The translations under genes and the position numbers were made by a program. This document shows, piece by piece, positions 22,776-30,115 of a stretch of DNA of 30,115 nucleotides. The DNA is from a virus. The notes beneath the pieces are model-generated. The model saw only the letters and a list, made by a program, of their open reading frames with translations. It did not search any database and was not told the DNA's origin. Within the stretch, counting starts at the first letter, position 1; the number at the start of each line of letters is the position of its first letter. The stretch spans positions 13,472 to 43,586 of the IMG/VR virus record IMGVR_UViG_3300037847_001663. One strand, written 5' to 3'.

Positions 22776-22845
22776 GAGTCTTCTCGGTCATCCTGCGCTG
22801 AACATCTGAGAACTCTCTACGTCCAGCTTTTTTTACTCGCTTCAC
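22678..22845 (-). CDS. Small basic protein with GTG start, overlapping the next gene
   Basis: 55 aa starting GTG at 22845, whose GTGA overlaps the TGA stop of the 187-aa gene, a typical coupled start. The predicted product begins MKRVKKAGRREFSDVQRRM, continues with a THGSKKYNRNKDG stretch and ends in an acidic tail. It fills the otherwise empty 66-base gap upstream of the small-terminase candidate, then overlaps it by 98 bases in another frame. The Lys/Arg-rich composition and coupled start support it. The length of the overlap counts against it. No known domain. Confidence 0.45.
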   Translation of the reverse strand: MKRVKKAGRREFSDVQRRMTEKTHGSKKYNRNKDGFKKHQAGDYSGWEEGGEATD

Positions 22846-23405
22846 AATACTACTGTAATATTATCTGTAAACATCCGGTAGAGCTTTTCTCCGTCTACCG
22901 TAAACTCATAATCGCTGTAGGGTTGGTAGATTATCTCGTCTCCCTCCTTCAGTCCCAACTCCTCAAGCTGCTTATTAATATAACGAATTGTTCCGACCAA
23001 GGGTTCCTCCGTACCGTTCTTGTCTATAAACGAAGCTTTCTTATCGGAGGGCTTTACAAAACAATACTTGTCATGCGCGACCCATCCATCACCCTTGTTG
23101 TAAAGGAAGAACTGTAAAGAGTCTACAAAGAAGATGTCCTCCTGAAAAAAGCTTCTACCGCTTTTCTCATTGCCCTTCATATCATAATACTTCTTAAAAA
23201 CATTATGATGAACGAGCAACAAATCCCCAGCCTCAATAGGGCCGTCATAGTGGATAGGAGTCTCAATGACCTCTGCAAATCTGTTTGAGTGTATGTGGTC
23301 TTCTTGTGAGGTGCTTATAAGGATTTCTTTACCACCGACCTCTTTGGTGTTTGCGTACCGCTTGCCATCTATAGGCTTCACGATAAACATATATGGAGAT
23401 TTCAT
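22842..23405 (-). CDS. Conserved phage protein with GroES-like barrel pattern, 187 aa
   Basis: The ATG at 23405 (MKSPYMFIVKPIDGKRYAN) is chosen over an upstream ATG at 23462 because it forms a TAATG junction with the previous stop and the upstream extension lies inside that gene. Residues 5-75 follow a GroES-barrel pattern: strand MFIVKP, then GGKEILISTS like a mobile-loop GGIVL, NRFAEVIETP like the RGEVLAVG strand, and IEAGDLLLVHHNVF like VKVGDIVIF. The second half adds FFQEDIFFVDSLQFFLY, KYCFVKP and a FTVDGEKLYRMF end. The family recurs in Bacteroidota phages next to terminase genes. A chaperone-related role is inferred from the pattern only. Confidence 0.8.
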   Translation of the reverse strand: MKSPYMFIVKPIDGKRYANTKEVGGKEILISTSQEDHIHSNRFAEVIETPIHYDGPIEAGDLLLVHHNVFKKYYDMKGNEKSGRSFFQEDIFFVDSLQFFLYNKGDGWVAHDKYCFVKPSDKKASFIDKNGTEEPLVGTIRYINKQLEELGLKEGDEIIYQPYSDYEFTVDGEKLYRMFTDNITVVL

Positions 23406-23635
23406 TAGAAGTTTATATTGTATTCGACTGAAATAGGCATCCATGAGTTGAACTCCTTCCAAAGCACAACTTCACTTTCCTTGATAATCCAAATTTTAAT
23501 TGAGTCCCTATTGACATCGCGCTTGATGAGATGAATCTCATAATCCCCACCAAGCACGTTTTGCCCTACAATGTAGTGCATAGCCCCCGACTTATAGTCA
23601 GGGCCAACTGATATCTTACGGATGTCTTCGTGCAT
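23405..23635 (-). CDS. Conserved small phage protein, 76 aa
   Basis: Start MHEDIRKISVGPDYKSGAMH, then YIVGQNVLGGDYEIHLIKRD, a beta stretch (IKIWIIKESEVVLWKEFNSW) and end MPISVEYNINF. A compact mostly-beta protein without membrane segment. I recognise this IRKISVGPDYK ... MPISxEYNINF family from many Bacteroidota phage contigs, always near the terminase, with no assigned function. It overlaps both neighbours by one base (TAATG at each end), so its expression is tied to theirs. Confidence 0.82.
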   Translation of the reverse strand: MHEDIRKISVGPDYKSGAMHYIVGQNVLGGDYEIHLIKRDVNRDSIKIWIIKESEVVLWKEFNSWMPISVEYNINF

Positions 23636-26614: not shown

Positions 26615-27085
26615 CTACCAAAGAGCTACAATATCTGTTGCTGCTGTTCCTGTTGACAAAACACGAGTCACGTTTATTGGCAAGAAAGTTCCAGCCAACG
26701 CTCCCTTAAAAAGAACCTCGTTACCTCCAGCCATCTTTACCTTGACATCTCCTGCAACTCCTACATAAAGGACGCAGCCGTTGCTTGGGTTGTTTGCTTG
26801 AGAGTAAATCACATATGAAGCTCCAGTGGCAATTGCTGCTGAAGTGGTAAGAACTGTATCGCTTACAATAGCATCCACAGTGGCAACCACGCTATTGGTT
26901 GTGTCATACACTATGTCACCAACAGCAACTGTCTTAGTAAATTCCGTTCCCGTACCTACTAACTGTGCGCCTGTAGGTGCTGCCGCTGTACCTGTATTGG
27001 CTATAGCCGCAGGATTCGGAATGTCAATAGTATCGCTTGGTATTACAGCTAAGGCTTCTCCAGCCTGTAGTTTTTGATATGCCAT
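26615..27085 (-). CDS. Small virion protein with an inserted beta domain
   Basis: 156 aa. The outer core is MAYQKLQAGEALAVIPSDTI at the start and GCVLYVGVAGDVKVKMAGGN, FKGALAGTFLPINVTRVLST, GTAATDIVALW at the end, a combination I know from short structural proteins of marine phages. Residues 36-96 are an insertion (EFTKTVAVGDIVYDTTNSVV, then AIVSDTVLTTSAAIATGASY) with a pattern similar to segments in the capsid protein and the 268-aa tail protein. First gene of its unit, 16 bases after a TATCTTTG box, suggesting high expression. Possibly a head-fibre or decoration protein. Confidence 0.8.
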   Translation of the reverse strand: MAYQKLQAGEALAVIPSDTIDIPNPAAIANTGTAAAPTGAQLVGTGTEFTKTVAVGDIVYDTTNSVVATVDAIVSDTVLTTSAAIATGASYVIYSQANNPSNGCVLYVGVAGDVKVKMAGGNEVLFKGALAGTFLPINVTRVLSTGTAATDIVALW

Positions 27086-27101
27086 TATCTTTTGCTTTAC
27101 G

Positions 27102-27109
27102 CAAAGATA
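27102..27109 (-). promoter_or_regulatory. -7 promoter box TATCTTTG with upstream TTTG
   Basis: TATCTTTG on the minus strand, 16 bases before the ATG of the 156-aa gene. A TTTG at 27127-27130 lies 17 bases upstream and may serve as the -33 element. This is the only box in the window with a plausible -33 match at nearly the usual spacing. It would drive the LamG/holin/spanin block. Confidence 0.72.
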
Positions 27110-27115
27110 AGGCTT

Positions 27116-27283
27116 TTACTTTTTATCAAATGGGAATACCCTGTTCAGGGTGTCTTTGCGTTTTCCGCAGCCACAGTCCTTCCCTGTAACCTCTGAAACC
27201 TTCTCCACAACCTTCTTAATGCCTGTTGCTTCTGTGATGTTCTCGACAACATCTCCCAGTCCTTTTGGATTTTTATTCTTCAT
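27116..27283 (-). CDS. Small Cys-containing basic protein, 55 aa
   Basis: ATG at 27283, stop TAA at 27116. The product starts MKNKNPKGLGDVVENITEAT, then GIKKVVEKVSEVTGKDCGCG and ends KRKDTLNRVFPFDKK. It is an amphipathic helical pair followed by a CGC motif and a basic helix. The start overlaps the stop of the 96-aa gene (TAATG). I recognise the KGLGD ... GIKKxVE ... DCGC ... LNxxFPF pattern as a recurring tiny gene of Bacteroidota phages. The Cys pair could bind metal, but two Cys are few for that alone. Function unknown. Confidence 0.8.
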   Translation of the reverse strand: MKNKNPKGLGDVVENITEATGIKKVVEKVSEVTGKDCGCGKRKDTLNRVFPFDKK

Positions 27284-27573
27284 TAGTATTTCCCTCTTTT
27301 AGATTTAGGTGAACTTTGGGTGGAGCCGCCCTTTCCGGCCCACAAGTGTTTGCAGGCCCAGTATCGAGCGGTCAATTTATTCTTTGCGCTGCCGCACTTG
27401 TGTCGAGCCTTGAATGACTTCCTTGCAGCATCTGAGTAGTTGTGTCCGTATCCCTTGGCTCCGAAGTGTATAAGCTTCTCCTTACCTCCGGAACACGCCT
27501 TGACCATCTTCTTCTTACCTGCTCGGTCTGAAGCGACAACCCTATTGCATTTCATCCTACTCTTCTCAGCCAT
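27283..27573 (-). CDS. Small basic conserved protein shared with large DNA viruses, 96 aa
   Basis: Start MAEKSRMKCNRVVASDRAGK, then KKMVKACSGGKEKLIHFGAK, GYGHNYSDAARKSFKARHKC, KLTARYWACKHLWAGKGGST and a Ser/Lys-rich tail. The KxxKLIHFGAKGYxxN ... ARKSFxARH ... TARYW pattern is a small domain family I know from phages and nucleocytoplasmic large DNA viruses (a DUF5754/5872-type group; the exact number is uncertain). Four Cys are spaced along the chain. It overlaps the upstream gene by eight bases and the downstream by one. The strong positive charge suggests nucleic-acid contact. Function unproven. Confidence 0.82.
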   Translation of the reverse strand: MAEKSRMKCNRVVASDRAGKKKMVKACSGGKEKLIHFGAKGYGHNYSDAARKSFKARHKCGSAKNKLTARYWACKHLWAGKGGSTQSSPKSKRGKY

Positions 27574-27925
27574 TTCTCCTGATTGCTGAGACCTTCTTAC
27601 CTGAAGCTCCCTGTTTACCGATTCGTCTTTTCTCCGCCTGCTTCTTACGCAGCATACTCTTGGACATCTCTGACTTTGTCACAGGTGTCTTTGAAGACAC
27701 TCTCTTTGATGGGCGACAATACTCACTCTTGTTGCCTGTACCGCAAGGCTTGCCTGTACGGGTGTCAACCCACTTTTCTTTGCCCCATCTTTTTAGGTTG
27801 GAGCCTGCCTCGCTCTTGCGTACCTGACCCTTAGACTTACGACACTTTGCTGTGGCCTGTGCAGCTCTTGCTGACCACTTGCCGTAACTCTTCATTACTT
27901 TCTTATAGCAAGCGTCCTTTGGCAT
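27566..27925 (-). CDS. Small basic two-module protein, 119 aa
   Basis: Module one (about 1-50) is MPKDACYKKVMKSYGKWSAR with AAQATAKCRKSKGQ. Module two (about 40-75) is SNLKRWGKEKWVDTRTGKPC followed by GTGNKSEYCRPSKRVSSKTP. A Lys/Arg-rich tail (MSKSMLRKKQAEKRRIGKQG) completes it. The SNLxRWxKEKWVDxxTGKPCG piece is a small domain seen in phages and giant viruses. The ACYxKVxxxYxxW piece is a separate small phage module. Very basic. Translation starts within the stop of the upstream 48-aa gene (TGATG). Possibly a DNA-binding or virion-packaged protein. Confidence 0.8.
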   Translation of the reverse strand: MPKDACYKKVMKSYGKWSARAAQATAKCRKSKGQVRKSEAGSNLKRWGKEKWVDTRTGKPCGTGNKSEYCRPSKRVSSKTPVTKSEMSKSMLRKKQAEKRRIGKQGASGKKVSAIRRNG

Positions 27926-28071
27926 CAGTAGCTCTTCTTCTCCATACCGTAGTTAGGGTTGTAGCTTATCTTGCTACCCTTATGCATCTTGGCATATGAG
28001 TCAGCCTGAGCCTTCCCTACTGCGTTGTATGGAAACACTTTCTTCTTACCGTTTGCTTTTACTGTTGGCAT
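27925..28071 (-). CDS. Tiny basic protein, 48 aa
   Basis: ATG at 28071 to TGA at 27925. The product starts MPTVKANGKKKVFPYNAVGK, then AQADSYAKMHKGSKISYNPN and ends YGMEKKSY. It fills the gap between the 84-aa and 119-aa genes exactly: one base after the upstream stop and a one-base TGATG overlap with the downstream start. Basic, Tyr/Lys-rich, no Cys. Short 'KVNGKKxxYxxxGxxxA' proteins are common in this kind of phage cassette. Too short to assign a function. Confidence 0.75.
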   Translation of the reverse strand: MPTVKANGKKKVFPYNAVGKAQADSYAKMHKGSKISYNPNYGMEKKSY

Positions 28072-28072
28072 A

Positions 28073-28327
28073 TCACTTCAGCTTATAGGTTCCTTCTTTG
28101 CCCCGTACACGCTTGACCTTGTAGTCACCGCCCTTGAGGAATCCACCTTTGCTCAGCCTACGCTTAGGTACGCGGATGTCATCAGTGGTGTACATCTCAC
28201 CGGTGTCCTCACGAGGAGAAACGTAATACTTACTACCCAAGCCGCTCTTACGCTTTACCTTTCGAGCTTTGGTAGTGTTCTCACCCGCTATGCGGGTCGC
28301 CTTTTTTTTCTTTGGGTCTGTCTTCAT
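28073..28327 (-). CDS. Very basic small protein, 84 aa
   Basis: Start MKTDPKKKKATRIAGENTTK, then RKVKRKSGLGSKYYVSPRED, TGEMYTTDDIRVPKRRLSKG and a Gly/Lys tail (GDYKVKRVRGKEGTYKLK). More than a quarter of residues are Lys or Arg. No Cys, no hydrophobic core obvious. ATGA overlap with the previous stop. Likely to bind nucleic acid or an acidic partner in the head. No family recognised. Confidence 0.78.
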   Translation of the reverse strand: MKTDPKKKKATRIAGENTTKARKVKRKSGLGSKYYVSPREDTGEMYTTDDIRVPKRRLSKGGFLKGGDYKVKRVRGKEGTYKLK

Positions 28328-28530
28328 TTCCGCTTACATCCAAAGTTGTTGGCGTAGTTCGCCATCTTCACTACTGACTCGGAGTAACTGTCCTTTTTCT
28401 TCATTACAGCGGAGGCTGCGCTACAGGCATCTTTGAACCCGTTGCGCTTTGCCCATGCTGTAAACTTGCCTTGAGACTTTTCTTTTATCTCAGGGAAGGC
28501 TCCTTTCTTGGTTCTCCCTTTGGTAGCCAT
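28324..28530 (-). CDS. Small basic conserved protein, 68 aa
   Basis: Start MATKGRTKKGAFPEIKEKSQ, then a compact helical domain KFTAWAKRNGFKDACSAASA with VMKKKDSYSESVVKMANYAN and NFGCKRK. The KFTAWAKRNGF ... VMKKKDxYSxxVVKMANYANNFGC pattern recurs in Bacteroidota phages. Two Cys could form a disulphide or help bind metal. ATGA overlap with the downstream gene and TAATG with the upstream one. Function unknown. Confidence 0.8.
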   Translation of the reverse strand: MATKGRTKKGAFPEIKEKSQGKFTAWAKRNGFKDACSAASAVMKKKDSYSESVVKMANYANNFGCKRK

Positions 28531-28736
28531 TACTTGATTCTTCGTGGCTTTGGAGACTCAGCTAAAGGCATTGAGTGTCGGTAGCTCATGCTCTTGTCAG
28601 CACCGTAGGCGTGACCGTACATCTTCTTTGACATTGCCTTGCTCTCGTCTCGTCTATCTTTAAGAGACTGGCTTTTCTTTCCGTGTCTTGCTCCTAATGA
28701 CTCATCGAGTCGTGCGTTGTATCCTTGCTTTTTCAT
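28530..28736 (-). CDS. First gene of the small basic protein cassette, 68 aa
   Basis: Start MKKQGYNARLDESLGARHGK, then KSQSLKDRRDESKAMSKKMY, GHAYGADKSMSYRHSMPLAE and end SPKPRRIK. Charged and probably largely disordered. The DESLGxRHGKKSxSxKxRRDES piece is familiar from other Bacteroidota phages. Its ATG is 22 bases after the minus-strand -7 box of the palindromic promoter, so it opens the cassette. No enzymatic motif. Confidence 0.8.
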   Translation of the reverse strand: MKKQGYNARLDESLGARHGKKSQSLKDRRDESKAMSKKMYGHAYGADKSMSYRHSMPLAESPKPRRIK

Positions 28737-28747
28737 AGCTATGGGTT

Positions 28748-28767
28748 TTATCTTTGTACAAAGATAA
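28748..28767. promoter_or_regulatory. Palindromic bidirectional promoter/operator candidate
   Basis: A perfect 20-bp palindrome, TTATCTTTGTACAAAGATAA, lies in the 40-base gap between the divergent genes. Each half contains TATCTTTG, one on each strand (plus 28749-28756, minus 28759-28766), so two -7 boxes face outwards back to back. The plus box ends 20 bases before the winged-helix ATG and the minus box 22 bases before the basic-protein ATG. A TTG at 28725-28727 may be a weak -33 for the plus strand. The palindrome would also suit a dimeric repressor. Confidence 0.72.
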
Positions 28768-28776
28768 TCAAATTAA

Positions 28777-29229
28777 ATGTCCTCTCCTGACTACATGAAA
28801 TACTGGCGGGTCATCCGCTACTGGGTCAAGGCAAAGTACGGCCTGACCGAAACAGAACTTGACGTGCTTTTCTTCCTAAAGACCGAGCCATACTTCAGCA
28901 AAGACAAGTTCAAAGAGTTTGACAAAGTCCTATCATGGGACAAGAACAGGTTTGACCGTATGCTCAGAGATGGGTGGATTGTAGTGTGGAGGAAGAGAGA
29001 GGGTAACAAGAAGACCCTCTACAACATCTCACACAAGGGCAAGCAGGTGGTCAACACTGTTTACAAGAAGCTACAGGGGGATGACATCTCAACGCACAAC
29101 AGCAGAATCTTTAACGCCAATACAAAGTTCACCGACAATATGTACCGTCAGGCAATCGTTAAGATGAACGAGGAGCTGCGTAAGGACAGGATGTCTAAAC
29201 GACAACAACAACGTCCCTCTCAAGGATGA
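28777..29229 (+). CDS. Winged-helix DNA-binding protein (MarR/PadR-like), only plus-strand gene
   Basis: 150 aa. Residues 1-100 fit a winged helix: helices MKYWRVIRYWVKAKYG and LTETELDVLFFLKTEP, a recognition region SWDKNRFDRMLRDGW, then wing strands IVVWRKREGNKKTLYNISHK and a final helix GKQVVNTVYKKLQG. The tail (about 105-150) is charged. It is the only plus-strand gene, divergent from the basic-protein cassette across the palindromic promoter and convergent with groES, which it overlaps by 35 bases at the 3' ends. It may regulate itself and the neighbouring late operon. The fold is likely from pattern. The target is inferred. Confidence 0.8.
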   Translation: MSSPDYMKYWRVIRYWVKAKYGLTETELDVLFFLKTEPYFSKDKFKEFDKVLSWDKNRFDRMLRDGWIVVWRKREGNKKTLYNISHKGKQVVNTVYKKLQGDDISTHNSRIFNANTKFTDNMYRQAIVKMNEELRKDRMSKRQQQRPSQG

Positions 29230-29452
29230 TGGTGTAGGGCTTGTCCTCGATGAACATCGAATAGCCTGCGCTCTTGTCGTAGTATATCACGTCACCCTCA
29301 CTCACACACTTCACCTCAGTACCCTCCTTGACCACAGTGGCCTTCTGATACCGGAAGTCGTCAGCGTCATCACGCGACAACAATAGACCTGAGTCTGTCT
29401 TCATCTCCTCCTTTAGCGGAGATATCACTATGTACTTGTTTACTGGTCTCAT
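29195..29452 (-). CDS. groES: Phage co-chaperonin GroES, compact form
   Basis: 85 aa (cellular GroES is about 95-100). It starts MRPVNKYIVISPLKEEMKTD. The mobile loop carries SGLLL at residues 21-25, the place of the GGIVL anchor that docks onto GroEL. Strands YQKATVVKEG and VSEGDVIYYDKSAG match the RGEVLAVG and VKVGDIVIF strands, and YTIILERDVV the final strand. The region between the two middle strands is only about six residues (TEVKCV), so the roof hairpin found in bacterial GroES is missing. It has an ATGA overlap with the 85-aa gene and lies two genes after groEL. The end is five Val residues encoded by GTT/GTC codons. Confidence 0.88.
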   Translation of the reverse strand: MRPVNKYIVISPLKEEMKTDSGLLLSRDDADDFRYQKATVVKEGTEVKCVSEGDVIYYDKSAGYSMFIEDKPYTIILERDVVVVV

Positions 29453-29706
29453 GCTCTTATAACGTATATCGGTGTTTGCTCTCCCACATAGCTTCCGGCA
29501 ATGTTGTAGTCAAAAAATTCTTGGGCCTCCACGTCATTCATCTCATGCTCCTCCATCAGTATGTCAATGATTTTGTTTTGGTCGTATACAACCCTTGGCA
29601 TCGTCATAAACTCAACGCCTATTATAGCATCGTCAAAGCCATCAGCAAACAATACTTGCTCTTCACTAACCAGCTCAATCACCTTATCTCTCTTACTTAG
29701 ACTCAT
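29449..29706 (-). CDS. Conserved small phage protein between groEL and groES
   Basis: 85 aa, start MSLSKRDKVIELVSEEQVLF, then ADGFDDAIIGVEFMTMPRVV, YDQNKIIDILMEEHEMNDVE and AQEFFDYNIAGSYVGEQTPI. The LxADGFDxAIIG ... KIIDILxxxxxMxxxEAxEFFxxNxxGxYVGExTP pattern is a widespread small phage protein of unknown role, also seen in cyanophages as far as I recall. It overlaps groEL by 14 bases and groES by four, so all three are co-translated. Position suggests, but does not prove, a link with chaperonin function. Confidence 0.82.
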   Translation of the reverse strand: MSLSKRDKVIELVSEEQVLFADGFDDAIIGVEFMTMPRVVYDQNKIIDILMEEHEMNDVEAQEFFDYNIAGSYVGEQTPIYVIRA

Positions 29707-30115
29707 ACGTTCTCGCCATTGTCACAATTGCATTTGTACTCAGGATGGTGTTCGCAACAGACACAGCACTACGCAGGGCTGTCTTGGTCACCTTGGCTGG
29801 GTCTATCACACCCATCTCAACCATGTCACCGAACTGACCTGTCTTTACGTTCATCCCCTCAGTGTCACTCATGTCATTGGTAATGTCACTCGCCTGCCGC
29901 TCAGTCATCCCTGAGTTCATCAGTATCTGTCGCGCTGGCTCACCCAAGGCAACACCCATCACCTCAGCCGCCATCTCATCAACAAGCGTATCACCTGTGT
30001 CAATCTCTGCCCTGAACCCGTTCAGTGTCACACCGCCTCCGGCAACAATTCCATCAGCCAGTGCAGCCCGTACAGCACACACTGCGTCATCAACACGGTC
30101 AAACCGCTCCTTCTG
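29693..30115 (-). CDS. groEL: Phage chaperonin GroEL, C-terminal part (partial at right edge)
   Basis: The frame is open to the last base of the window, giving 140 residues that match the end of GroEL. QKERFDRVDDAVCAVRAALA followed by DGIVAGGGVTL corresponds to the E. coli stretch RVEDALHATRAAV ... VVAGGGVAL, and the Asp equal to catalytic D398 is present (second Asp of RVDDA). GVIDPAKVTKTAL matches GILDPTKVTRSAL, with D495 for nucleotide binding conserved. GEPARQILMNSGM matches the APLRQIVLNCG helix. The Gly-Gly-Met tail of cellular GroEL is absent; the protein ends ARTYESK. An internal GTG at 30082 is not a start. The rest of the gene lies to the right. Confidence 0.92.
   Translation of the reverse strand, partial: QKERFDRVDDAVCAVRAALADGIVAGGGVTLNGFRAEIDTGDTLVDEMAAEVMGVALGEPARQILMNSGMTERQASDITNDMSDTEGMNVKTGQFGDMVEMGVIDPAKVTKTALRSAVSVANTILSTNAIVTMARTYESK

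Follow-up and report, generated by a model that had tools for sequence, protein, structure and literature searches.

What is the role of a perfect palindrome lying between two genes that diverge from it, one of which encodes a winged-helix protein? The question is raised by TTATCTTTGTACAAAGATAA, at positions 28748-28767 of the window (the whole stretch of DNA analysed here, 30.1 kb out of a 43.6-kb metagenomic virus record). We checked its exact coordinates and self-complementarity: as the initial annotation had stated, it is a 20-bp perfect palindrome, its own reverse complement. No other perfect palindrome of at least 14 bp occurs in the window. Perfect palindromes of at least 20 bp appeared somewhere in 7 of 200 dinucleotide shuffles (P ~0.035 for length alone), and the length by itself is evidence of modest weight. 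The exact 20-mer, with up to three mismatches allowed, was found in 0 of 100 shuffles. On its left side the palindrome is followed by small basic ORFs and, beyond them, by the genes of terminase, portal, and virion proteins, every one of them on the minus strand; rightward lie the gene of the 150-aa winged-helix (wHTH) protein and then groES and groEL, the latter two on the minus strand. The genes closest to the site are the following.

28777..29229, plus strand: wHTH gene, encoding a 150-aa winged-helix protein, MarR-like according to its predicted structure
28530..28736, minus strand: first leftward ORF, 68 aa, pI 10.3
28324..28530, minus strand: basic ORF, 68 aa, pI 10.1
28073..28327, minus strand: basic ORF, 84 aa, pI 10.4, with a homologue close to the wHTH gene in the relative L003
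27566..27925, minus strand: basic ORF, 119 aa, pI 10.8, DUF5872 (E 1.7e-12)
27283..27573, minus strand: basic ORF, 96 aa, pI 10.4
27116..27283, minus strand: basic ORF, 55 aa, pI 9.5
29195..29452, minus strand: groES (Cpn10), whose 3' end overlaps that of the wHTH gene
29693..30115, minus strand: groEL, truncated where the window ends, so that its C-terminal part is included

The two neighbours are what they had been taken for. The leftward ORFs, with pI values of 9.5-10.8, do form a cassette of basic proteins. DUF5872 is a curated family of unknown function, and the ORF at 27283-27573 matches both DUF5754 (another family of unknown function, below the cut-off) and part of PHROG 220, minor head protein and DNA pilot (E 1.2e-14). 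On the other side, the AlphaFold model of the 150-aa protein is confident (pLDDT 85.7, from a 32-member alignment) and combines a helix-turn-helix with a beta wing and long helices at the termini. Its top matches in a Foldseek search against the PDB belong to the MarR family, with a probability of 1.00 but an E of 4e-3 and a TM of about 0.45. These nearest solved folds bear out the winged-helix assignment, and the protein is predicted to have a fold of the MarR type. Sequence searches of Pfam, NCBIfam, and the PDB returned nothing solid for it: there is no match to a curated MarR model or to any Pfam family, and an NCBIfam match, to the SarA family, falls below the cut-off.

The palindrome had been described as two -7 boxes, one on each strand, and this holds: TATCTTTG reads on the plus strand at 28749-28756 and on the minus strand at 28766-28759. 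The flavobacterial sigma-A -7 box is TAnnTTTG, located at -12 to -5 (PMC9723704), and both strands carry it. The starts predicted below were derived from box position alone, at this same distance (PMC9723704).

28748..28767, both strands: perfect palindrome of 20 bp, made up of facing -7 boxes of the TAnnTTTG type 2 bp apart
28749..28756, plus strand: TATCTTTG as the rightward -7 box for the wHTH gene, with transcription predicted to begin at 28761 (A) and to give a leader of 16 nt
28759..28766, minus strand: TATCTTTG as the leftward -7 box for the basic cassette and what follows it, with transcription predicted to begin at 28754 (A) and to give a leader of 18 nt
28725..28727, plus strand: a TTG preceding the rightward box by 21 bp, the spacing of a -33 element; weak, and present in a minority of relatives

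The two predicted starts are 7 bp apart and both are A. Their predicted leaders, of 16 and 18 nt, have an ordinary length for this phage group, and the predicted melted regions, 28749-28762 and 28753-28766, almost coincide. Rather than back-to-back, the boxes are better termed inward-facing, each predicted start falling within the box of the opposite promoter. Seven other minus-strand genes of the window are also preceded by TATCTTTG or TAACTTTG, at 5-44 nt from their starts, which makes this a credible promoter box for the phage. Further -7 boxes lie inside the leftward virion module. The leftward box has no TTG counterpart at -33 spacing. E. coli-type sigma-70 promoters were considered as well and rejected, their count being no higher than in shuffles. 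Bidirectional promoters have core elements on both strands that overlap or nearly do so; here the boxes are 2 bp apart and the pair is conserved in relatives. Their opposite-strand starts lie no more than about 25 bp from each other, against the 7 bp predicted here.

These relatives are Bacteroidota phages and comprise 58 viral contigs, MW202828.1 (terminase 75% identical), Flavobacterium elemo phages, and Cellulophaga phi38:1. A rightward TAnnTTT[GA] followed by a leftward box is found in 37 of the 39 tabulated loci (upstream regions of relatives), which share ancestry and are counted as separate observations, so that P-values overstate their independence. No recognisable pair was found in L013 and L025. 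The gap between the boxes is 0 bp in 12 of the 37 loci, 1 in four, 2 in six, 3 in nine, 5 in three, and 7, 9, and 12 bp in one each; leaders are mostly of 12-37 nt on both sides, and predicted starts are 5-17 bp apart. The gap varies little (standard deviation 2.3 bp, against 12.2 when leaders are permuted), and the spacing of the start codons is variable. A consensus G closes the leftward box in 36 of the 37 loci and the rightward box in 15, the latter having a terminal A in over half of the relatives; of the two promoters, the leftward one is thus nearer to consensus.

The pair is also specific to this boundary. In a comparison over 50 non-redundant loci, where gene calls on metagenomic contigs are crude, it occurs at 36 of the 38 boundaries with a divergent wHTH gene (0.86 expected from shuffles; strict consensus on both sides in 11 of the 38). 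Its frequency elsewhere is 2 of 35 for the remaining divergent boundaries and 16 of 290 for codirectional boundaries. A general trait of divergent boundaries in these phages is thus rejected. MW202828.1 has the divergent wHTH layout and no clean pair. Phages without a divergent wHTH gene (Maribacter Panino, Calle, and the cultured elemo and phi38:1 phages, where the gene is codirectional) have no pair, which lends little weight because these are distant relatives.

We think it probable, judging from the sequence comparisons, that the palindrome is the core of an overlapping divergent promoter of the Bacteroidota housekeeping-sigma type. One TATCTTTG box would drive the wHTH gene rightward, and the box 2 bp away on the opposite strand would drive the basic cassette leftward, possibly together with the virion module beyond. 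We infer transcription from both boxes; a polymerase bound in one direction would then exclude the other, and the stronger or activated direction would lower the opposite one. Such mutual exclusion of polymerases at the facing boxes is likely because of the geometry, with its near-coincident melted regions, and because it has been shown for bidirectional promoters of E. coli, where competition arises only if activity in one direction is high enough (PMC12825309). By the same token, activation of one side would be needed for a real switch at this locus, and a switch between the regulator and a late operon, as initially proposed, is possible. The exact mirror symmetry would then be a by-product of both boxes being TATCTTTG around a self-complementary gap (TA).

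A different reading starts from the protein. The palindrome could be the operator for a dimer of the adjacent MarR-like protein, which would repress both itself and the leftward unit. Palindromes between divergent genes are often bound by MarR regulators, and repression of the regulator itself together with the divergent unit is the textbook MarR layout, which the fold predicted for the adjacent protein would suit. PecS is an example of a MarR regulator with such a palindrome between divergent genes (PMC6391409). A MarR-type dyad should keep its spacing among orthologues, yet here the gap ranges from 0 to 12 bp and the variable bases of the paired boxes are identical in 8 and different in 29 of the 37 loci, even though the protein is well conserved. 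In L003, whose wHTH protein is 91% identical, the same two halves are separated by 7 extra bp, and the first leftward gene is another one. The exact 20-mer is found at the wHTH boundary of the window, L001, and L002 only. An operator should keep its spacing when the protein is strongly conserved, and two promoters need not; these sites do not show the spacing expected of a dyad operator. The loss of the palindrome in relatives that was to refute the initial proposal is thus half borne out: the promoter pair is conserved in nearly all relatives, and the exact palindrome in the nearest ones only. What is conserved, as far as sequence comparison indicates, is two overlapping divergent promoters rather than a fixed palindromic operator. 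The initial claim of divergent promoters sharing base pairs is accordingly upheld by the near-complete overlap of the boxes, the divergence of the genes, and the conservation of the pair; the part that had the wHTH protein binding the palindrome is not supported, given the variable gap, the few loci with agreeing boxes, and the insertion in L003. The protein may bind elsewhere in the region.

The best remaining argument for an operator is that a related phage carries the identical 20-mer at another promoter, before a virion-protein gene with a codirectional neighbour (L060 55-74; L061 1916-1935; L115 2729-2746), in a record that shows no wHTH homologue in the part examined. This second copy, which also counts against the promoter pair, may have converged by chance, may mark a promoter that gives antisense output as well, or may be an operator common to both loci. 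Taken together, we consider the operator reading quite unlikely.

It might also be that a single box is the promoter, or that both are without functional coupling, the second arm arising from chance or from an A-rich leader and the symmetry having no function. Several arguments speak for this. First, palindromes of at least 20 bp occur in 3.5% of shuffles. Second, A-rich leaders follow many -7 boxes, and [CT]AAAnnTA is found after 15 of 89 codirectional ones. Third, TTG at -33 spacing is present in one direction only. The more specific CAAAnnTA, however, follows the -7 box in 9 of 10 wHTH promoters and in 2 of 89 codirectional cases (in relatives' genomes read nearly whole), which excludes an ordinary leader motif for this form. 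To judge by their contig positions, both codirectional [CT]AAAnnTA cases at L098 and L101 represent the wHTH site, which the crude gene caller had put in the wrong class, and the contrast is for this reason stronger, not weaker. Moreover, the wHTH boundary stands out against both shuffles and other boundaries, both neighbouring genes need a promoter, and there is no further TAnnTTTG near either start codon. An uncoupled or single box is therefore very unlikely. Finally, an RNA hairpin was rejected by sequence reasoning, as each predicted start lies in the other arm and neither transcript would hold both arms, and so was a common host repeat: the pattern TTATCTTTGNNCAAAGATAA is found at only 28 loci in the whole genome collection, and a shorter core once or twice per genome in the ten Bacteroidota genomes carrying it. 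The hits to TTATCTTTGNNCAAAGATAA are intergenic in 11 of 13 cases in Bacteroidota genomes and in 5 of 15 in other phyla, which speaks for the promoter reading.

Bidirectional promoters are an already known kind of element. Those of E. coli and Salmonella described by Warman, Grainger and colleagues (PMC12825309, PMC10268837) resemble the overlapping divergent promoter proposed here in having overlapping core elements on opposite strands and, as predicted for our locus, starts a few bp apart with one polymerase excluding the other. They differ in box type, which is TATAAT there and the Bacteroidota TAnnTTTG here, and in start spacing: the most frequent distance in E. coli is 18 bp, those of 10 and 23 bp being common too, whereas the end-to-end boxes of the window predict 7 bp (5-17 in relatives). 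The PecS/pecM system (PMC6391409) shares with our locus a gene for a winged-helix protein, MarR-like by prediction here, that is separated by a palindrome from a divergent neighbour. Unlike in that system, the spacing and symmetry of the palindrome are not conserved with the protein, the palindrome coincides with -7 boxes, and no curated MarR model matches. A search of the accessible literature for facing promoter pairs in Bacteroidota or their phages found none. The locus thus offers a comparative case in which Bacteroidota TAnnTTTG promoters could be arranged bidirectionally, the cited bidirectional-promoter papers being concerned with TATAAT. The phage group seems to have kept this arrangement where a regulator gene borders on a block of virion genes, at this one boundary, while the spacing drifted, and the natural spacing variants, with predicted starts 5 to 17 bp apart, could be used to measure how polymerases compete. 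The locus also warns against concluding too readily that a perfect palindrome next to the gene of a winged-helix protein is the operator of that protein.

The far end of the wHTH gene adds a second layer. The final 35 bp (29195-29229) are shared with groES, the two genes meeting by their 3' ends, and in this overlap ACAACAACAACG encodes QQQR in one direction and a portion of VVVVV in the opposite one. The offset between the two genes is -34 in most relatives and -5 or about -40 in some. The gene order places leftward units at both ends of the wHTH gene, and no terminator-like site was found on the minus strand within 27000-30115, including the stretch from groES to the basic cassette. It is conceivable, though rather doubtful, that polymerases from groEL/groES cross the wHTH gene antisense into the virion module and that this traffic times late expression. 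If so, the regulator would be made only while leftward transcription is low, and the arrangement would be conserved across the whole Bacteroidota phage group. The layout recalls the noncontiguous operon, as described in PMC7154746 and for tha/ith of phage 80alpha (PMC11087260), with one opposite gene nested among same-strand genes, overlapping units, and a likely collision of polymerases. In such an operon one transcript runs across the nested gene; what is seen here is the gene layout and the 35-bp groES coding overlap. Besides the groES at 29195-29452, a second GroES-like protein is encoded at 22842-23462 (PHROG 13932, E 2.8e-22), away from the first and adjoining the terminase gene. At 27086-27110, before the gene starting at 27085, there is a looser inverted repeat, TTATCTTT-10 nt-AAAGATAA, with a full TAnnTTTG in its minus-strand box only.
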